From NCBI GenBank assembly GCA_021732785.1, contig JAKFUG010000002.1:1-64000 (forward strand): a stretch of 64,000 nt of DNA, read 5' to 3'. This document shows positions 36,446 to 48,144 of the stretch, piece after piece. How positions within the stretch are numbered: position 1 is the stretch's first letter; the number at the start of each line of letters is the position of its first letter. This stretch comes from Planctomycetaceae bacterium (GTDB lineage Bacteria; Planctomycetota; Planctomycetia; Planctomycetales; Planctomycetaceae). The notes under the pieces are model-generated. The model was not told the DNA's origin, did not search any database, and saw only the letters and a program-made list of their open reading frames with translations. Both the position numbers and the translations under genes were made by a program.

Positions 36446-37369
36446 TTACAACACCTTCTCAATCGTCTCGCGCAAGACCTGTCCTGACTTCTGCAGAGCG
36501 AGTTTTTCCTTCGGCCACAGTTCGATTTCGATCGTATCGAGCACTCCCTTGCGACCGACAACGGTGGGGATCGAGATCGCCACATCACGCAGGCCATACG
36601 GACCATTGACCAATGATGACACCGGCAAAATGCGGCGTTGATCGAGGGCGATGCTGTGGACGACATCGGCGATGGAGACACCGACGGCAAAGCCCGCGCC
36701 GCCTTTTTTCTTGATGACTTCCGCGCCGCTGCCACGGGTTTTCTTTTCGACTTCCGCAATCAGCGTCGAATTCACGCCGGGGTATTTTTCCAGCGGCAAT
36801 CCGGCGATCTGGGCGTTCGACCAGATGGGAACCATGCTGTCGCCATGCTCACCGAAGATGGTGACCTGCACCTGTGTCGGCGGGACATCGAGCCGTTGGG
36901 CGAGCATGCTCCGTAATCGTGTCGTGTCGAGGACCGTACCAAGACCGATGACCTGGGACGCGGGCAGTCCGAGTTCCTTGATCGCGAGGTACGTCAACAC
37001 GTCGACCGGATTTGAGACGACGAAGACGATGGCGTCCTTGCGAAGCCCTTGCGTCTTCATGTCGGCGAGAATGCCGCGGAACAACGTCACGTTACGGTTG
37101 ATGAGATCGAGCCGGCTTTCGTCAGGCTTCCGTCGCAGTCCCGCGGTGATGACGATGACATCGGCGTCCTTCACTCCGACTGTGGTCGAGAAGGTGATCT
37201 TCTGGTCGGACAGAATGCTCGCCCCGTGCAACAGGTCGAGAGCCTGCCCTTCGCACAGTTCCTGGTTCACATCCACGAGATTGATCTCGCGGACAATCTT
37301 GCCGGCCTGCAACGCAAAGCCCGCGCAAGAACCAACCAGTCCGCCGCCGCCGATAATGCTGACTTTCAT
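36446..37369 (-). CDS. malate/lactate dehydrogenase family, BMC-associated
   Basis: 307 residues. Rossmann motif GGGGLVG (residues 7-13), NAD-binding Asp (LVDVN), catalytic H175 in GEHGDSMVP with D148 and R151 in LDTTRLR. At the specificity position (102 in lactate dehydrogenase numbering) it has R80 in TAGLRRKPDESR, which favours dicarboxylic substrates such as oxaloacetate. A malate/lactate dehydrogenase is a known member of Planctomycetes-type BMC loci, where it is thought to recycle NAD+ for the aldehyde dehydrogenase. No encapsulation helix is visible, so it may act outside the shell. Confidence 0.92.
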   Translation of the reverse strand: MKVSIIGGGGLVGSCAGFALQAGKIVREINLVDVNQELCEGQALDLLHGASILSDQKITFSTTVGVKDADVIVITAGLRRKPDESRLDLINRNVTLFRGILADMKTQGLRKDAIVFVVSNPVDVLTYLAIKELGLPASQVIGLGTVLDTTRLRSMLAQRLDVPPTQVQVTIFGEHGDSMVPIWSNAQIAGLPLEKYPGVNSTLIAEVEKKTRGSGAEVIKKKGGAGFAVGVSIADVVHSIALDQRRILPVSSLVNGPYGLRDVAISIPTVVGRKGVLDTIEIELWPKEKLALQKSGQVLRETIEKVL

Positions 37370-39145: not shown

Positions 39146-39424
39146 TTATTCCACTTCGATGGTGTCGAGGATGCACGCGTTGTATGCGTCTAACGGTTTC
39201 GGTTCGGGGAACGGGGCGCCCGCTTCGGCCCCTTCGCTGATGCCGATGAGGGCGCCGGGTGACGCGCCCCATTCGTCGTAAGCGACAATCGGTTCTTCGC
39301 GACCGGCGGGGTCGCCCTTCAAGCCGGCATGCGACAACGGCACGACGACGATCCACGTCCCGCCCGAGATACTCGGGTGGCACCTGGCCAACGTCACCTT
39401 GCCGATTACTTCGCCGACTCGCAT
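39146..39424 (-). CDS. BMC-P pentameric shell protein (EutN/CcmL type)
   Basis: 92 residues starting MRVGEVIGKVTLARCHPSISG, the standard EutN/CcmL N terminus, and ending ACILDTIEVE. It should form the pentamers that cap the 12 vertices of the shell. The loop GISEGAEAGAPFPEPKPLDAY is longer than in the 84-residue copy. It is one of three BMC-P copies in this locus, the number reported for Planctomycetes-type loci. It lies between the aldolase and the EP-tagged RpiB-like gene. Confidence 0.95.
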   Translation of the reverse strand: MRVGEVIGKVTLARCHPSISGGTWIVVVPLSHAGLKGDPAGREEPIVAYDEWGASPGALIGISEGAEAGAPFPEPKPLDAYNACILDTIEVE

Positions 39425-39470: not shown

Positions 39471-40199
39471 TTAGTCCCAACCTAATGGCGGTTGTGGGCG
39501 GTTCAGCGCCGCGCAGGCTCGCAGGATGTTTCGCAGTTCGATGTAACTTCGCCCGGTGGGATCGATCACCAACAGGTTCGCCCCAATGCTTTTCGCCATC
39601 GCGGTCAATGTCTCAAGGGACGACACCACCGCCGCCCGGATTTTAGGAGATCGATTGGCATAGCACGCAATCAATTCGGCCCGGTCCGAGAACGCAATTA
39701 CCAACTCGGCTTCCGCGGTGGCTAACAGCCGGGTCGCGGTTTCGACGACTTCCGTCGCCTTGCCGATGAGATCGCAACCCCAACCCGGCAATTCACGACT
39801 CAGTGTGCTCTGCACGGCCCGCACTGATGGAGTGACCGTGCTGATCAACAGTCGTCGCGTCGCTGTGGATGAATTGACCGATGTCGTCGCCGCTCCCGCT
39901 TCACGGGACCAGGCCACTTTACGCGTGTGCAGCCAATCGCGCGCGGAGGGCGTGAGCAGCGACTTCGGACCGAAACGCAGTGCGGAGGCTGTCGTGGCCC
40001 GGTCTTGCAAAAGTTTCGCGGTGATGACGGGATCCAGCAATTCGATCGCGACGGGTTTCACGACCGGCGCTGAGAGAGCGGGCTTGGGCATTTCGACCGG
40101 TGGTGACGGCGGCGTCACCGCGCGCGATGACCCGACGGGCTGGAGTTGGGCCAGCACGTTGGTCACGATGCGATCGATGAGAGCCGAGTCGGTTGCCAC
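39471..40199 (-). CDS. EP-tagged BMC-associated protein with degenerate RpiB-like domain
   Basis: 242 residues from GTG 40199. Residues 1-20 (SALIDRIVTNVLAQLQ) form an amphipathic helix like the other encapsulation peptides, followed by a Pro-rich linker. The middle holds LLTPSARDWLHTRKVAWSR, a motif shared with EutT/EutQ/PduM-type BMC accessory proteins. The C-terminal 110 residues follow the RpiB/LacA pattern (LLISTVTPSV; IAFSDRAELIACYANRSPKI), but the catalytic Cys region and the HN pair are lost. It is probably a structural or scaffold pseudo-enzyme inside the shell. Confidence 0.7.
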   Translation of the reverse strand: MATDSALIDRIVTNVLAQLQPVGSSRAVTPPSPPVEMPKPALSAPVVKPVAIELLDPVITAKLLQDRATTASALRFGPKSLLTPSARDWLHTRKVAWSREAGAATTSVNSSTATRRLLISTVTPSVRAVQSTLSRELPGWGCDLIGKATEVVETATRLLATAEAELVIAFSDRAELIACYANRSPKIRAAVVSSLETLTAMAKSIGANLLVIDPTGRSYIELRNILRACAALNRPQPPLGWD

Positions 40200-40209
40200 G
40201 TCGTTGCCG

Positions 40210-40464
40210 TTAATCCACGATTCCCATGATGGTCCACCGCACGCAGGTGATGTCCGTTCCCACGAGCTCGCGTGCTGTCTTACCGTCCGAAGAGATAATC
40301 ACTGTGTCACCGCGACCGGCTCCCTGGTTGTCAATCACCAGTTGCGGTGCGCCGTCTGGTTGTCCATTCACTCCCAGCGGTTGTGTCAGCACCAACCGCC
40401 AGCCGTGCATCGTGGGATGCTTGACGGTCGATGTCGCGCGGCCGATGACTTTGGCGAGCTGCAT
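40210..40464 (-). CDS. BMC-P pentameric shell protein (EutN/CcmL type)
   Basis: 84 residues, the shortest of the three copies: MQLAKVIGRATSTVKHPTMHG at the start, VDNQ-type core ending GTDITCVRWTIMGIVD. It forms vertex pentamers. Its start codon is followed (upstream on this strand) by the heptamer arm of the first four-helix-bundle cassette, so the inserted cassette separates it from the aldehyde dehydrogenase gene. Confidence 0.95.
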   Translation of the reverse strand: MQLAKVIGRATSTVKHPTMHGWRLVLTQPLGVNGQPDGAPQLVIDNQGAGRGDTVIISSDGKTARELVGTDITCVRWTIMGIVD

Positions 40465-40468
40465 AATT

Positions 40469-40905
40469 GCGGAAAGCCTAAAGCGAAAAGCGGAAAGCCG
40501 GGCTAAGACGATTTCAATGTTGCTCGGAATCGGCTTAGCATTCGACCCAATTCATCTGATGCAAGGTAGAGTGCCTCAAAGGTGTCATCTGCCACGAGGC
40601 CTTCCTGCCTTGCGATATACATTTGCGAAACACATTCCATTAACGACCCATACGCAATCTCCAGAAACCTTGCAAAATCGATGTCTGAGGACCGGCTGCT
40701 GCCCTCGGCGATGTTTGACGAAATCGATACTGATGCACGTCGAAGCTGGCTGGTCAATCCGTATCGTTCGGATGTTGGAAAATCTTTCGTTGCCGCGTAA
40801 ATGCCTCTCGCATAGACCACAGCCTTTTGCCAAACATCCAAGCGCTCAAAGCGGAACCGTGTCTCTGGCATTTTTCCGGCTTTCCGCTTTAAGCCTTCTG
40901 CTTTC
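40469..40905. repeat. heptamer inverted-repeat cassette 1 around a four-helix-bundle gene
   Basis: The left arm (40469-40502) reads as heptamers ttgcgga, aagccta, aagcgaa, aagcgga, aagccgg. The right arm (40872-40905) is the inverse, sharing the exact core aaagcggaaagccgg. The arms directly abut both ends of the 40503-40871 gene. The whole unit is about 437 bp and occupies the spacer between BMC-P and the aldehyde dehydrogenase. Confidence 0.8.
40503..40871 (-). CDS. four-helix-bundle protein (S23/IVS type) 1
   Basis: 122 residues with the family pattern: FERLDVWQKAVVYARGIY, LTSQLRRASVSISSNIAEG, DFARFLEIAYGSLMECVSQ. This family is known from intervening sequences in bacterial 23S rRNA genes and is related in fold to the Avd accessory protein of diversity-generating retroelements. 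It is about half identical to copy 3 at 44996. It has no recognised BMC function and is bounded by heptamer arms, so it looks like cargo of an inserted element. Confidence 0.9.
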   Translation of the reverse strand: MPETRFRFERLDVWQKAVVYARGIYAATKDFPTSERYGLTSQLRRASVSISSNIAEGSSRSSDIDFARFLEIAYGSLMECVSQMYIARQEGLVADDTFEALYLASDELGRMLSRFRATLKSS

Positions 40906-40913
40906 CACCCTAC

Positions 40914-42430: not shown

Positions 42431-42931
42431 TCAAAGCGTGTCGCGCTGAATCTGATCCGCCCAATTCTCGAACTGCGTCTGTGAGGGCAACGTCACCGCC
42501 ATAATCGACAGCAGTATGGCAATCGCGCCGATGTTGAGCAGCGATACCGTCACGATGTAGGCCACTCCGTTGAAAAACCCAGCCCCTTCCAGCAGCGCGG
42601 CTCCAATGATGGTCTTCGCTTGATAAGCCCCGGCGAGTTGCTGTCGAAATGCTTCCGGTGTTTGCCCCTCGGTCTGCCGTGTCGCAGCGGCAGTGACGAT
42701 CCCCGGAATTACGAATCGCATCGCAATCATCAAAGCGGCACCAGCCACACCCAGATACTTCAAAAACAGCGGTGCATTTTTCACTGGCTCGTCGCTGATG
42801 AAGATTGCAATTGCCGTAAAATTGATGAGGCCGAACATCAGCGCGCCAACAACAATCATGGCATTGCGGCCGACTTGCTCGGGCTTCATCGGGAATTGTG
42901 ACTGTGGCGACGACGGCGACGGGAAAATCAT
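42431..42931 (-). CDS. small multi-pass membrane protein in the BMC operon
   Basis: 166 residues with three or four hydrophobic segments (AMIVVGALMFGLINFTAIAI; KYLGVAGAALMIAMRFVIPG; IIGAALLEGAGFFNGVAYIV and following). The start ATG overlaps the BMC-P stop as ATGA (42928-42931), so the two are translationally coupled. It lies between BMC-P and the aldehyde dehydrogenase. I recognise no family. Membrane proteins are not standard shell components; it could move substrate or product across the inner membrane, but that is inference. Confidence 0.75.
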   Translation of the reverse strand: MIFPSPSSPQSQFPMKPEQVGRNAMIVVGALMFGLINFTAIAIFISDEPVKNAPLFLKYLGVAGAALMIAMRFVIPGIVTAAATRQTEGQTPEAFRQQLAGAYQAKTIIGAALLEGAGFFNGVAYIVTVSLLNIGAIAILLSIMAVTLPSQTQFENWADQIQRDTL

Positions 42932-43251
42932 TTCGTCCCATCCTGTTTCGCATCGAAGATGTTCAGCGCACCGAGGTGAACCGAGTCCACAATCCCGATA
43001 ATCGCACAGTCGATCGGCAGCGGTTTTGTCTGTGGCGTGAAGCGAGCGCTCGATCCCTGCACGATCAATACGACTTCGCCTTCGCCCGCGCCGACCGTAT
43101 CCACGGTGATAAACGTCCGCCCGGTGCCGACCAATGTCTTTTGGTCCTTCTCCTGCACGCGCAACGGCTCAACGATCAGCAGCTTCTGGCCAATCATGGC
43201 CTCCACTTTCTGAGTCGCAACCACACTGCCGGTGACGCGGGCTAAAAACAT
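42928..43251 (-). CDS. BMC-P pentameric shell protein (EutN/CcmL type)
   Basis: 107 residues from ATG 43251 (MFLARVTGSVVATQKVEAMIG); the 17 upstream codons in frame are repeat-derived and not used. The core KLLIVEPLRVQ...VAVDTVGAG-type segment (read TVGAGEGEVVLIVQG) and C-terminal IDCAIIGIVD are clear, followed by a 15-residue tail (SVHLGALNIFDAKQD) absent from the other two copies. It is the longest BMC-P here and overlaps the next gene. Confidence 0.95.
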   Translation of the reverse strand: MFLARVTGSVVATQKVEAMIGQKLLIVEPLRVQEKDQKTLVGTGRTFITVDTVGAGEGEVVLIVQGSSARFTPQTKPLPIDCAIIGIVDSVHLGALNIFDAKQDGTK

Positions 43252-43255
43252 AGTG

Positions 43256-43757
43256 TGAAATCCGAAATCCGAAACTCGAAATCCGAAGGAAATCCTAAGC
43301 ACGAAATCCGAAACAGGACTTATTCTGACTTTCTTAGGATCGCCGCGAGGATTCGCATGAGCTCGGTCGCCTCTTGGAGGAGTTCGCTTCTTGTTGATTC
43401 AACGTTTGGGCTGGTTCCCGTGTCGAGCAATCGCAACCAGTAGGCCGTTTCTTTCGCTTCTTTCCGTGAAATCCGAATCCGAAGTTTGAAGTCTTTTTTG
43501 CCGAGTGATTCGTTGGCTTCGATGTAGTTGGCACCAACCGAACCCGATGAGCGGATCAATTGTTTGCCGTCTTCGATATTGGCCAGCGTGCGGGGGATCG
43601 TCTTCAGAAAAGCACGCACCGATTTCGCGAACTGAAACGATCGCTCTTCGAGGTCGTACGGCTTTTCGCTCGTTTCACTCATCACTCACGCTGTCCTGTT
43701 TCCTCATTTCTGTGCTTCGAGATTTCTTCGGATTTCGTGCTTCGGATTTCGGATTTA
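43256..43757. repeat. heptamer inverted-repeat cassette 2 around a four-helix-bundle gene
   Basis: The left arm (43256-43319) runs gaaatcc, gaaatcc, gaaactc, gaaatcc, gaaggaa and ends gaaacaggac. The right arm (43691-43757) is its inverse, beginning gtcctgtttc and ending ttcggatttcggattt. Complementarity extends imperfectly over about 60 nt, the longest of the three cassettes. The arms abut the 43320-43685 gene on one side and leave 5 nt on the other. Confidence 0.85.
43320..43685 (-). CDS. four-helix-bundle protein (S23/IVS type) 2
   Basis: 121 residues of a second subfamily: YDLEERSFQFAKSVRAFLK, LIRSSGSVGANYIEANESLG, DFKLRIRISRKEAKETAYW. It is only distantly related to copies 1 and 3, so it did not arise by local duplication of them. 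It lies between BMC-P and acetate kinase inside heptamer arms. RNA-binding and IVS-type roles are known for relatives, none for BMCs. Confidence 0.9.
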   Translation of the reverse strand: MMSETSEKPYDLEERSFQFAKSVRAFLKTIPRTLANIEDGKQLIRSSGSVGANYIEANESLGKKDFKLRIRISRKEAKETAYWLRLLDTGTSPNVESTRSELLQEATELMRILAAILRKSE

Positions 43758-44948
43758 CTTTGTCTTGATCACCGCGGCCGTTTGCCGAGCGACGACGATT
43801 TCCTCGTTGGTCGGCACGACCCAAATCTGCGTGCGGCTTGTTGAAGCGGCGAGGTTCATTTCGCTGCCGCGCGGCACGGTCTTGTTCTTCTCGGTGTCGA
43901 GTTCAATCCCCGCCCATTCCATGCCTGCACATACGTCGTTACGGATGCGGACGCTGTTTTCGCCGATGCCGCCGGTGAAGACGATCGCGTCCGCGCCGCC
44001 GAGCACCGTCAGATACGCGCCGAGGTATTGCCGGATCGATTGCACGAAGACTTTCAGTGCAAGATCGGCCCGGGCATTGCCACTTGCCGCGGCGTTTTCG
44101 AGGTCACGCACATCGCCGCTGAGACCGCTCATGCCGAGCAGGCCGCTTTTGTTCGACAGGTCTTCGAGGATCTGCGCGAGTGTTTTTCCCGTCGCCCGCA
44201 TGATCACCGGCAGGGCGAACGGGTCGAAATCACCCACGCGGTTGTTGTGACACAGTCCCGTCTGCGGACTCATGCCGAGGCTGTTGGCCTGCGACACGCC
44301 CCCCTTCATCGCACACAACGAATTGCTGCCGCCGAGATGACACGAGATCACCCGCAGATCTTGCCGACCGAGCAACTCACCGATCCGTTGACCGATGAAG
44401 CGATGACTCGCGCCGTGAAAGCCCCACCGCTTGATGCCGTGCTCTTCCTGCCATTCAAACGGGATTGCGTACGCCCGAATCTCTGGTGGAATCGTTTCGT
44501 GGAACGCCGTTTCTAACGCCGCCACAAGCGGAATTTGCGGAAACGCCGACCGTAGTTGCCGCATCGCTTTGGCATACGGCGGGTTGTGAGCCGGCGCGAT
44601 GTCCGACAGCGATTCCATCATCGTGAGGAGTTCCTCATCGACGATGCGAATGCCGCTCAGCTTCCCCGCGAATACGGCTTTGAACCCGATCGCCTCGACT
44701 TCATCGGCGGACTTCAAACACCCCCACTGCGGATGCATGAGCTGCTCGAGGCACAGCCGCACGGCCGCCGCGTGGTCAGGCACCCCGCGTGTGTCCTCTT
44801 CGCGGTGCGTGCCGATCTCCACAAAGCACTGGCTTTGGGGCTGCCCGATCCGGTCAATCCCCCCGCGCGCCAACTGCCGCTCGTCCGACAAGTCGAACAA
44901 ACGGTACTTGAAGCTGGTGGAACCGAGGTTGGCGACGAGAATGAACAT
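43755..44948 (-). CDS. ackA: acetate/propionate kinase, BMC-associated
   Basis: 397 residues. Converts acyl-phosphate and ADP to acid and ATP; here it would use the acyl-phosphate made by PduL. Family motifs: [11 protein letters not shown] at the N terminus (N7), [44 protein letters not shown]. The signature regions are more diverged than in housekeeping AckA (for instance LGST replaces CGSS), as expected of a dedicated BMC kinase. The last codons reach the right arm of heptamer cassette 2. Confidence 0.93.
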
Positions 44949-44949
44949 G

Positions 44950-45391
44950 GGCTGAGGGTCTAGGGCTAAGGGCTAAGGGCTAAGGGACAGAAGCGTTATT
45001 GAGGCTTCAACGATTTCTTCAACCCAGTGAGCATCCGACCTAGCTTTTCGGCTTGGTCATACAATTCTTGATAGTCGGCATCGGGCAGAAACGTTTGTCG
45101 CTTCGCGATCGCGGCATGGGAGACCGTTTCCATCAGTGAGCCATACGCAATCTCAACGAAGCGAGCGAAGTCGGTCGATGAGCTGCGGCTGGAGCCCTCT
45201 GCAATGTTCGCCGCAATCGATACTGCAGAACGCCGCATCTGTTGCGTCAAACCAAAGCGTTCATCGGCGGGAAAGCTGCGTGTCAGACGGTAGATGCGAT
45301 CCGAGAAATCGATTGCTTCGTGCCATACGTCAAGCTTTTCAAACTTGAACACGCTGCAATCCTCCGTCCCTTAGCCCTCAGCCCTTAGCTC
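44950..45391. repeat. heptamer inverted-repeat cassette 3 around a four-helix-bundle gene
   Basis: The left arm (44950-44988) is gggctga, gggtcta, gggctaa, gggctaa, gggctaa, gggacag. The right arm (45362-45391) is the inverse (gtcccttagccctcagccctta). They flank the 44996-45352 gene. The right arm runs into the stop codon of the next BMC-H gene. Confidence 0.85.
44996..45352 (-). CDS. four-helix-bundle protein (S23/IVS type) 3
   Basis: 118 residues: MFKFEKLDVWHEAIDFSDRIY, LTQQMRRSAVSIAANIAEGSS, DFARFVEIAYGSLMETVS. It is clearly homologous to copy 1 at 40503 but too diverged to be a recent duplicate. It lies between acetate kinase and the tailed BMC-H gene, inside gggctaa heptamer arms. Confidence 0.9.
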   Translation of the reverse strand: MFKFEKLDVWHEAIDFSDRIYRLTRSFPADERFGLTQQMRRSAVSIAANIAEGSSRSSSTDFARFVEIAYGSLMETVSHAAIAKRQTFLPDADYQELYDQAEKLGRMLTGLKKSLKPQ

Positions 45392-45818
45392 ACACAAAGT
45401 ATTCCAACAGCGCCTTATCCGGCCGGGCGATGACGTGGGCCGACACGAGTTCACCGACTTGCGAGGCGGCACCCGAACCGGCGTCGATGGCGGCGCGGAC
45501 GGAACCGACGTCGCCTTTGATCACGGTGGTGATGTACGCACCGCCGATTTGAATCTGCTTCACCAGGCTGACGTTCGCCGCCTTCAACATCGCATCCGCG
45601 GCTTCAATCTGGGCGACAAGGCCCTTCGTTTCGAGCAAACCAATGGCTTCGTTCATGGTAGAGGACATTCCAACGGAGTTCGGTACGGATTCAACAGGGG
45701 TGATGGCCGGTGTCGTAACCGCCGGCGATGGAGTCGTCGCAGCCCGACGGGCGGGCCGCGCCGCTGCTCGTACAGGGCGTTTCACCGGAGCGGCTTTTTT
45801 CGGACTGCGTTTGGGCAT
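45390..45818 (-). CDS. BMC-H hexameric shell protein with basic N-terminal tail
   Basis: 142 residues. Residues about 50-142 are a standard BMC domain (MNEAIGLLETKGLVAQIEAA, GSVRAAIDAGSGAASQVGEL) that forms hexameric facet tiles. The first 50 residues are a Lys/Arg/Ala/Pro/Thr tail beginning MPKRSPKKAAPVKRPVRA, like histone-H1 tails, and probably disordered. ATG 45818 gives the full tail; starting at the internal Met near residue 50 would give an ordinary BMC-H, so start choice matters. The tail could bind RNA, membrane or cargo. Confidence 0.9.
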   Translation of the reverse strand: MPKRSPKKAAPVKRPVRAAARPARRAATTPSPAVTTPAITPVESVPNSVGMSSTMNEAIGLLETKGLVAQIEAADAMLKAANVSLVKQIQIGGAYITTVIKGDVGSVRAAIDAGSGAASQVGELVSAHVIARPDKALLEYFV

Positions 45819-45917: not shown

Positions 45918-46205
45918 TCACGCCCTCGGCTTGGGCAGCACGCTGGCAATGTCTTCGTGCGGGCGGGGAATCACCTGCACGCTGACGACTTCGCCGATCT
46001 TGCTGGCGGCACCGGCCCCGGCGTCGACCGCGGCCTTCACGGCCGCGACATCGCCGACGACGAACGCCGTCACGAGGCCGCTGCCGACCTTTTCCCAGCC
46101 GACCATCTGCACGTTGGCAGACTTCAGCATCGCGTCCACGCCTTCAATCAGGCAGACGAGTCCCTTGGTTTCGAGCATCCCGAGCGCTTTCATCGGTTCG
46201 GCCAT
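45918..46205 (-). CDS. BMC-H hexameric shell protein
   Basis: 95 residues, a minimal single-domain [68 protein letters not shown]. It forms the main shell facets. The start ATG 46205 is preceded by aaggacaacc. Compared with the tailed BMC-H it has no extension and a short Pro/Lys/Arg tail at the C terminus. Confidence 0.97.
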
Positions 46206-47153: not shown

Positions 47154-47906
47154 TCACTCAACAATCGTCACGGGCACGCCGGCGTCTTCGAGGGTTCGCC
47201 GCCAGCGTTCTTCCAGGCCGCGATCGGTAAACAATCGCGTGACCGTCGACAGCGAACAGAGGTGGGCCAATGCCGTGCGGCCAAACTTGGTGCTGTCGGC
47301 GACGACCCACACTTCATCCGCGGCGTCCAGCATCTGCCGCTCGCAATCGACGAGCAGCGTATTGCTGTTGAACAACCCCTTCTCGGTGATGCCGCCGCAA
47401 CTCATCACCACACGATGGACACGCAAATTGGTCAGCGCCGCCGCCGCTAACGGTCCCAGCGCGACTCCCGTGCGGGGATACAGATATCCGCCGATGAGAA
47501 TCAGTTCGATGTTCGGTTGATTGACGAGCAGGTTCGCAATTGGCAAGGAATTCGTCACCACCTGCAACGACTTGCCGTTGAGACACCGGGCGACTTCCAG
47601 CGTCGTTGTGCCGCCGTCGAGGAGGACCGTATCCCCCGATTCAATCTCGTCGGCGACCGCCCGGCCGATGCGTTGTTTCTGCGGAAGCGATGCGGTGCCG
47701 CGCTCTTCAAACGGCGTGATGTGTTCGCCGGTGTAAGCCGCCCCGCCGCGAGTCCGACGGACCTGACCAATGCCGTCGAGGTATTCCAGATCGCGGCGGA
47801 CGGTGGATTCGCTGGCTCCCAGCTTCTCAACCAGTTCGTGCAGCGACACAAACCCCTGCCTCTCAATGAGTTGCAGAATTTCATCGCGGCGCTGATCGAG
47901 AAGCAT
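47154..47906 (-). CDS. DeoR-family transcriptional regulator
   Basis: About 250 residues from ATG 47906 (a GTG lies 9 nt upstream). N-terminal winged helix ([34 protein letters not shown]) and the C-terminal sugar-phosphate-sensing DeoRC domain with [15 protein letters not shown]. DeoR regulators are typical of Planctomycetes-type BMC loci and usually release DNA when they bind a sugar phosphate. It opens the minus-strand locus and probably controls it. Confidence 0.93.
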
Positions 47907-48144
47907 AGCGACCACTGGGAATTCCGGACGGCAAAATGGCGTCAGAAAATGTTTCCTAGACGCACTATCCTACCACCGTTGTGACAGAACGCAACCATAT
48001 ACCGGTCAAGTTCGGTCAGATCCCGCCGGGAACGCCACTGAATATGGCCGATCGGTTGACGGTTTTGCGCGTGTCGGCGGCAATCTCTTCGCGATCGGTG
48101 AATTGGAAAGACGAGGAAGAAACGACGCGGACTGGGTGATTGTG

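Follow-up and report, generated by a model that had tools for sequence, protein, structure and literature searches.

The tie between the enzyme core and the shell of metabolosomes has been worked out for few types, namely EutQ, PduM/PduB and the carboxysome linkers. In the ethanolamine compartment EutQ is described as the link between shell and cargo (PMC12487888). After deletion of residues 9 to 41, comprising helices H1 and H2, EutQ stayed with the cargo and shell and cargo separated; deletion of the flexible stretch from 42 to 61 had the same outcome, and each single-helix deletion also separated shell and cargo (PMC12487888). Binding of the EutC and EutE EPs falls to residues 62 to 99 (H3/H4), of which L89 and V93 are essential for EutC, and the C-terminal body is a dimer that is dispensable for assembly (PMC12487888). 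The authors concluded that H1/H2 contact the shell; the shell partners named there are EutM/EutL, not BMC-P (PMC12487888). As the deletions of 42 to 61 and of 9 to 41 had the same outcome, they do not pin the shell contact to the module described below alone. The EutQ proteins of some Gram-positives are reported to be without the first three helices (PMC12487888).

PduM of the Pdu compartment is a low-abundance structural protein, the deletion of which partly separates shell and core (PMC9132943, PMC12108088). The EP helix of PduM was shown to target the core (PMC12108088). That work, from 2025, calls into question a bridging of shell and core by PduM through PduB, and PduM is stated there to be without known sequence homology outside Pdu compartments (PMC12108088). 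For the PVM compartment the gene order published for Planctopirus limnophila is pvmABDEGHIJKLMNO (PMC11958385), in which B is the phosphotransacylase, G the acetate kinase and J the aldehyde dehydrogenase, and O has the alcohol-dehydrogenase role (PMC6620236). No experiment on PvmL was found in the open-access literature.

The window, a stretch of 64,000 nucleotides from a member of the Planctomycetaceae, contains a complete fucose/rhamnose-type (PVM) microcompartment locus according to the definition given in PMC4207490 (Table 1). The genes are arranged in the order regulator, PduL, two BMC-H, acetate kinase, BMC-P, small hypothetical protein, aldehyde dehydrogenase (AldDH), BMC-P, the gene under study, BMC-P and class II aldolase, and a lactate/malate dehydrogenase (LDH) comes after the aldolase with one unrelated-looking gene in between. 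The shell genes comprise three BMC-P and two BMC-H genes; the DeoR-family regulator, the acetate kinase and the BMC-H proteins were recognised by eye. Because 13 genes of the window match the published order in fitting sequence, we infer from position alone that the gene under study, hereafter called the target, is pvmL. The 242-residue reading frame that had been proposed from the letters was borne out, with the correction that it lies on the minus strand, the plus strand being full of stops. It starts with GTG, for which the congener G216 has ATG. The target is single-copy in its own genome, where the sole other match comprised 70 residues with stops (E 0.08).

Table 1. Position of the target, its parts and the other genes of the PVM locus in the window
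Feature	Position	Strand	Basis and remarks
Target gene, pvmL by position	39471-40199	minus	242 aa; EP-like helix, linker, module, degenerate RpiB domain
EP-like N-terminal helix, residues 5-19	40143-40187	minus	AlphaFold2 helix; V12 and V15 invariant; pattern as in AldDH, PduL and aldolase
Disordered Pro/Ala-rich linker, residues 20-48	40056-40142	minus	pLDDT mostly <50; low identity
b-a-b-a-b module, residues 51-99	39903-40049	minus	Includes LTPSARDWL (82-90); common to EutQ, EutT, PduM and TIGR02536 proteins
RpiB-fold domain without catalytic residues, residues 115-232	39504-39857	minus	Sequence profiles and predicted structure
BMC-P (EutN/CcmL) shell gene, upstream, pvmK position	40210-40464	minus	PF03319, 5.2e-24
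BMC-P shell gene, downstream, pvmM position	39146-39424	minus	PF03319, 5.7e-15
Class II aldolase (signature enzyme), C-terminal EP-like helix	38192-39109	minus	PF00596, 1.4e-49; pattern
Aldehyde dehydrogenase, N-terminal EP-like helix	40914-42371	minus	PF00171, 3.5e-27; pattern
PduL phosphotransacylase, N-terminal EP-like helix	46339-47043	minus	PF06130, 2.2e-69; pattern
Lactate/malate dehydrogenase	36446-37369	minus	PF00056/PF02866
Third BMC-P gene	42928-43302	minus	PF03319 match at 42985-43251; true start probably inside the ORF
Two BMC-H genes	45390-45818, 45918-46205	minus	By eye and locus conservation
Acetate kinase	43755-44948	minus	Sequence by eye and locus conservation
DeoR-family regulator	47154-47915	minus	Sequence by eye and locus conservation

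Three small genes of the 23S_rRNA_IVP family (PF05635; 40503-40871, 43320-43685 and 44996-45352) lie in gaps within the operon. Each of them is flanked by inverted repeats of 24 to 45 nt that differ in sequence (40471-40906, 43258-43756 and 44962-45389). The tblastn matches that border the corresponding gaps in G216, the congener, are separated by only about 20, 24 and 111 nt. A repeat-flanked element appears to have inserted here on three separate occasions.

The place of the target was compared in 35 loci, which were queried with the window proteins (16 plus 19; L046 and L048 are on one contig). In 32 of them the target had the same pair of BMC-P genes on either side, a count that includes L035, L037 and L038, in which the gap is known to hold the target gene. 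In L054 the contig ends at the target gene. In G087 and G105, which belong to one genus (g4), the target lies apart from the shell genes and the aldolase is also far away. The PVM genes of these two genomes (L032, L043, L142 and L143) are scattered, with the target, one BMC-P and the aldolase far apart, yet kept. The target and the small hypothetical protein had median identities to the window protein of 30% and 32%, respectively, compared with 53 to 56% for the neighbouring BMC-P proteins, 67% for AldDH, 74% for the aldolase and 78% for LDH. By this measure the target is kept across the loci but evolves unlike the locus enzymes. The small hypothetical protein at the pvmI position (166 aa, 42431-42931, minus strand), between BMC-P and AldDH, appears membrane-like by eye and had no Pfam match at E<=0.001. 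It is as poorly conserved as the target and was found in 16 of the 35 loci.

An AlphaFold2 model of the target was calculated from a 20-row alignment (A3) and had a mean pLDDT of 75 and a pTM of 0.49. The predicted helix at residues 5 to 19 (pLDDT about 68) is followed by disorder up to residue 48, by the b-a-b-a-b unit at 51 to 99 (block means 85 to 92) and, after a short disordered stretch, by an alpha/beta domain at 118 to 232 (block means 69 to 94, and 88 to 94 for residues 151 to 230). In the linker region (residues 21 to 50) the mean pairwise identity was 14%. The N-terminal segment had been taken for an encapsulation helix, and this was supported in the form of an EP-like tag, a predicted helix with a flexible linker and a pattern as in three locus enzymes. 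All 20 rows of the alignment have V12 and V15. The hydrophobic moment of the helix was 0.43, a value that was equalled by 10% of shuffles and is not significant alone. A terminal EP-like pattern was present in only 3 of 55 greedily chosen ORFs of the window, namely AldDH and PduL (both N-terminal) and the aldolase (C-terminal); the target was outside this set because a longer overlapping ORF had displaced it. I11 and V15 of the target align by eye with L89 and V93 of EutQ, and the later helix of EutQ (TESLVAQLMEKVM) looks like an EP. In L023, L024 and L026, which belong to other families, a conserved extra segment (PPxGxCTGDYSKF) is located between helix and module.

A family profile (A1) was built from 23 rows after two of 25 single-sequence matches had been dropped, G155 for its stop codons and G225 for an unrelated-looking frame. 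The C-terminal domain had been assigned to the RpiB fold, and this assignment was borne out by sequence as well as by predicted structure. The window protein matched PF02502 (LacAB_rpiB) with 18.6 bits (E 0.0019), which is below the gathering cut-off of 24.7 bits. This Pfam family was matched at E<=1 by 12 of the 23 family members, the best of which (L026) was above the cut-off with 1.1e-6 and 29.1 bits. Searched against PDB sequences, the 23-row profile gave 13 matches at E<=1, all of them RpiB or LacB (best 0.0012). With the C-terminal domain of the AlphaFold2 model Foldseek yielded 37 PDB matches at E<=0.001 (best 1.2e-5), and rows 1 to 45 were of the RpiB/LacAB type, except for two chains of the 4-deoxyhexosulose-uronate ketol-isomerase 4u8f. 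The first 23 rows of a VIA comparison consisted of 22 RpiB/LacAB structures and one of 4u8f, with Z from 12.4 to 15.2 and an rmsd of 2.0 to 3.2 over 115 to 130 residues; the next row was unrelated and had a Z of 8.7.

The catalytic residues of RpiB are D9, H10, C66, H99, N100, R133 and R137 in the E. coli numbering. In an alignment of 39 distinct family sequences, including that of the window, with E. coli RpiB, Asp was found at position 9 in three sequences and His at position 10 in one. Position 66 was occupied by Cys or Asp in none of the 39 (19 Ala, 8 Thr, 6 Val, 5 Ser and 1 Glu). One sequence had His at 99, none had Asn at 100, none had Arg at 133 (19 gaps) and one had Arg at 137 (33 gaps), and the C-terminal RH..R segment was gapped or unaligned in most of the sequences. 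None of the seven residues is present in the window protein, and all 39 sequences retain Asn77 and Asn103. As the catalytic positions are lost and the RpiB fold is kept in the family, the fold has been held and the active site has not. The sequence-only reading had already noted the loss of the catalytic Cys and of the HN pair, and this holds for the window protein and across the family. Its placing of AFSD (169-172) opposite CGTG was correct as to the lost Cys but not exactly in register, since Cys66 aligns with Ser171; the HN pair (99-100) corresponds to Ser204-Ile205 of the target. The reading of the target as derived from RpiB and not expected to isomerise is supported.

Relatives of the target with a kept active site were also present in the phylum. 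Profile A1 matched 78 of 294 Planctomycetota genomes, some of the matches covering the RpiB part or the module only. An RpiB-type relative in which DH, HN and RH..R are intact was encoded in 14 of 20 chosen regions, and Asp was at the position of the catalytic Cys in all 14 (L128-L139, L141 and L146). Ten of these relatives were located between BMC-P genes (L129-L131, L134-L137, L139, L141 and L146); no shell gene was matched by the window queries in 15 to 17 kb of L128, L132, L133 and L138. Two further loci with an active-site-keeping RpiB relative were L162 and L163. The order EP-like helix, module and RpiB was seen by eye in most of the catalytic-type relatives, and the RpiB of L146 had no module match. 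In actinobacterial RpiB, Glu serves as the base instead of Cys, and the Asp of the microcompartment RpiBs is possibly another base besides these two. In a published catalogue an RpiB-type enzyme and one of the DeoC type are given as common to SPU loci (PMC8217296), and because of this description the loci with a catalytic RpiB are called SPU-like here, on the RpiB-type gene alone.

In a tree of RpiB domains most of the degenerate sequences were set apart from the others by long branches. The degenerate sequences of L023, L024 and L026 grouped beside the catalytic ones, and a clade of microcompartment RpiBs with ordinary RpiBs inside had a support of 0.43. Most simply, a single protein of helix, module and RpiB would have become non-catalytic in the PVM line. 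The direction of this change is taken from parsimony only, because the midpoint root is arbitrary and because of the placement of L023, L024 and L026 and the support of 0.43.

The PVM locus of G274 contains a 132-codon open frame between two BMC-P genes (L127, 7164-7559), corresponding to about 118 aa from the first ATG. This frame consists of helix and module with little after them, and the match of the downstream BMC-P begins at its last base. The family profile matched G274 at model positions 5 to 99 only. Judged by these matches the RpiB domain is absent in this one genome, and helix and module are kept. This bears on the idea that the target might be a diverged but active sugar-phosphate isomerase, which we consider very improbable. 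Its RpiB fold, with a VIA Z of up to 15.2, would agree with such an activity, as would the RpiB-type genes with a kept active site (Asp for Cys) at the equivalent place flanked by BMC-P genes elsewhere in the phylum. However, the counts given above for positions 9, 10, 66, 99 and 100 and the mostly gapped or unaligned RH..R segment argue against it, and so do the missing RpiB domain of G274 and the presence of two full-length RpiB/LacAB genes elsewhere in the genome of the window. An active isomerase was rejected on the residues and on the absence of the domain in G274, and an ordinary RpiB paralogue was rejected in view of the two full-length genes.

The motif LTPSARDWL had been regarded as common to EutT, EutQ and PduM. 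When 26 planctomycete modules were compared with 18,950 NCBIfam models at E<=0.1, only six models were matched, five of which represent microcompartment proteins and one of which was a stray. TIGR02536 'eut_hyp' was matched by 19 of the 26 modules (best 1.4e-6), two PduM models by 13 and 8, EutQ by 8 and EutT by 2. Full-length members matched the C-terminus of the PduM and TIGR02536 models (about 162-205 of 207 in the latter) and the N-terminus of the EutQ model. A profile of the 26 planctomycete copies, which contained no E. coli sequence, was used to search 858 six-frame ORFs of the E. coli eut and pdu regions. EutT (2.2e-9), EutQ (9e-6) and PduM (0.0036) occupied ranks 1 to 3; the fourth ORF was at 1.2 and the best reversed decoy at 0.13. 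The earlier 23-row family profile had ranked a spurious ORF (0.027) behind EutT (2.6e-4), followed by EutQ as the third (0.89), and had not found PduM (13), so that of these two profiles only the broader 26-row one separated the three proteins. A 12-row profile made without PVM members gave the same top three (EutQ 5.5e-7, EutT 2.5e-4 and PduM 0.0017) and placed the target first of 936 window ORFs, yet with an E of only 0.012. By the module profile the module of EutQ comprises residues 3 to 47.

The sharing of the motif thus holds for the family by profile statistics; the divergent copy of the window protein, a module of 50 residues, matched no NCBIfam model at E<=0.1 when used alone. A chance motif was rejected by the profile ranking, the NCBIfam scan and the non-PVM profile. 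The homology contradicts the published statement that PduM is without known relatives outside Pdu compartments. The Pfam domains of EutQ and EutT leave the module uncovered, and the whole-length Pfam family of PduM covers it. In the scans made, no Pfam or NCBIfam model of the module's own was seen, and no description of a module shared by PduM and EutQ was found in the open-access literature. Predicted alone, the module had a pLDDT of 86. None of the solved structures stood out in comparison with it; the best Foldseek E was 0.082 and the best VIA Z was 6.1, and various unrelated families scored nearly as well. A weak sequence match (E 0.91) was obtained with the pyruvate dehydrogenase E2 component, in a region which we take to be its subunit-binding domain.

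The module profile matched 85 of the 294 Planctomycetota genomes, 82 of them among the 94 with BMC-P and 3 among the 200 without (Fisher p 2e-55, with the relatedness of the genomes ignored). One of the 94 genomes with BMC-P (G002) is below the family cut-off, and 12 of the 94 had no module match. Two of the three exceptions were matches of 15 and 18 residues, and one genome is 67% complete. At least 82 of 122 module matches start within 5 kb of the start of a BMC-P gene, and at least 66 within 1.5 kb. Of 40 matches for which no BMC-P was listed nearby 13 were read; a shell-protein match was present in six (L145, L154, L155, L156, L157 and L159), and seven regions (L032, L043, L128, L132, L133, L138 and L144) were without a shell gene in the stretch read. 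A shell-protein match was present in every region of a further set of 16 chosen ones. The module was fused to RpiB, to an ACT-like domain (e.g. in L140, L144, L145 and L160) and to a TIM-like protein (L146), these names being given by eye, and it also occurred with small C-terminal regions in frames of 98 to 142 codons or with the helix alone. The triosephosphate-isomerase-like frame of L146 (1241-2881, plus strand; GNWKAHG, by eye), which carries the module, adjoins BMC-P and RpiB genes. On this evidence the module is not specific to the family of the target, and it is by its distribution a common, mobile part linked to microcompartments.

The target has the helix and module of EutQ and PduM in another order, and in view of the deletion phenotypes of these two proteins we propose, with a probability of about 60%, that PvmL is an EutQ-like shell-to-core adaptor of the PVM microcompartment with a dead RpiB domain as its body. 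We infer that the N-terminal EP-like helix would attach to the core through packing with the aldolase, AldDH and PduL EP helices, that the b-a-b-a-b module would dock to the inner face of the shell, and that the C-terminal domain would be an isomerase of the microcompartment-associated RpiB line that lost catalysis and was retained as a body. As RpiBs are dimers, this body would most simply be a dimer, and the adaptor would be bivalent like EutQ.

A core assembly role of a non-catalytic protein had been suggested from the letters alone. This suggestion stands in so far as the protein is a conserved, non-catalytic member of the locus, but the core scaffold is replaced by a shell-to-core adaptor on account of G274 and of the EutQ segment. 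The assembly role lies most probably in module and helix and not in the pseudo-enzyme, because G274 keeps both without an RpiB domain and because the EutQ segment corresponding to the module is among those needed for shell association. The roles of the two parts could also be reversed, with the EP-like helix binding the shell and the module holding the enzyme core, since some EPs have been reported to bind between shell tiles (PMC11157265). We consider this improbable, because the homologue of the module in EutQ is one of the segments required for association with the shell, and EutQ holds the cargo EPs through its EP-like H3/H4 (PMC12487888).

The module is also present on proteins with an intact active site and may therefore be a docking tag for minor cargo. 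Its occurrence on the catalytic-looking microcompartment RpiB (DH/HN/RH kept), on EutT and on the TIM-like protein is evidence against a mark of adaptors. The module could accordingly be a generic second docking domain for minor cargo and the target a passive cargo or a binder of a cofactor or ligand rather than an organiser of assembly, with a new ligand site formed in the RpiB-derived domain by CxxNR, N208, P214 and ELRN. This would fit the unrelated bodies that carry the module (RpiB, ACT-like, TIM-like and small C-terminal domains by eye, and the EutT adenosyltransferase) and the good conservation of the C-terminal half of the RpiB domain. At 46% each, this half (CxxNR, N, P, ELRN) and the EP helix are equally conserved, which for the half domain is more than a mere spacer needs and suggests a further contact. 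However, G274, with an otherwise complete PVM locus, has helix and module only, so that the essential part in this locus cannot be a body that binds a ligand, and the median identity of 30% for the target is low compared with the values for AldDH, aldolase and LDH given above. We therefore regard minor cargo as a doubtful explanation and prefer the shell-to-core adaptor. For the module itself the odds appear about even that these roughly 45 residues are a general microcompartment-specific docking domain, shuffled onto adaptors and minor cargo of PDU, EUT, PVM and SPU-like compartments as a shell-side grip.

The reading of PvmL as an adaptor would offer a function for an unexplained PVM gene, and PvmL would be a case of a dead metabolic enzyme taken over as a body. 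It suggests a route by which an enzyme of one microcompartment type became a structural part of another. A module common to EutQ, EutT, PduM and the planctomycete proteins would provide one testable rule for several compartment types and a small docking part for engineering.

Compared with RpiB/LacAB (PF02502), the target has the same fold but has lost the catalytic positions. The SPU-like, microcompartment-associated RpiBs resemble it in the order helix, module and RpiB in most cases and in being flanked by BMC-P in 10 of 14; they differ from it in that all 14 retain DH, HN and RH..R and have Asp in place of Cys. EutQ has the same module, a flexible linker and an EP-like helix. However, the module of EutQ is N-terminal and the helices come after it, whereas the target is arranged as helix, linker, module and body, and the body of EutQ is a cupin (PF06249) with suggested acetate kinase activity, whereas that of the target is a dead RpiB. 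Residues 4 to 68 of the EutQ model NF012001 were matched by 4 of the 23 family members (best 6.7e-4), and the window protein had no match to it at E 10. An orthologue of EutQ was rejected as the PF06249 cupin is absent; at E<=1 the 23 members matched 21 families, none of which is a cupin family.

PduM (TIGR04493, PF15953) resembles the target in its N-terminal EP helix and its module, which in PduM is at the extreme C-terminus. An orthologue of PduM was rejected, since the best member read in detail reached 16.4 bits, in the module only, at a TIGR04493 cut-off of 50 bits; the window protein had no match to this model. The TIGR02536 'eut_hyp' proteins of ethanolamine loci, the best NCBIfam match, also contain the module, at the C-terminus of the model. 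As EutQ is without its first three helices in some Gram-positives, the TIGR02536 proteins may be the adaptor in those Gram-positive eut loci that have a shortened EutQ. If the module is such a general docking domain, PduM, EutQ, the TIGR02536 proteins and PvmL would form one adaptor class with the same helix and module in differing order.
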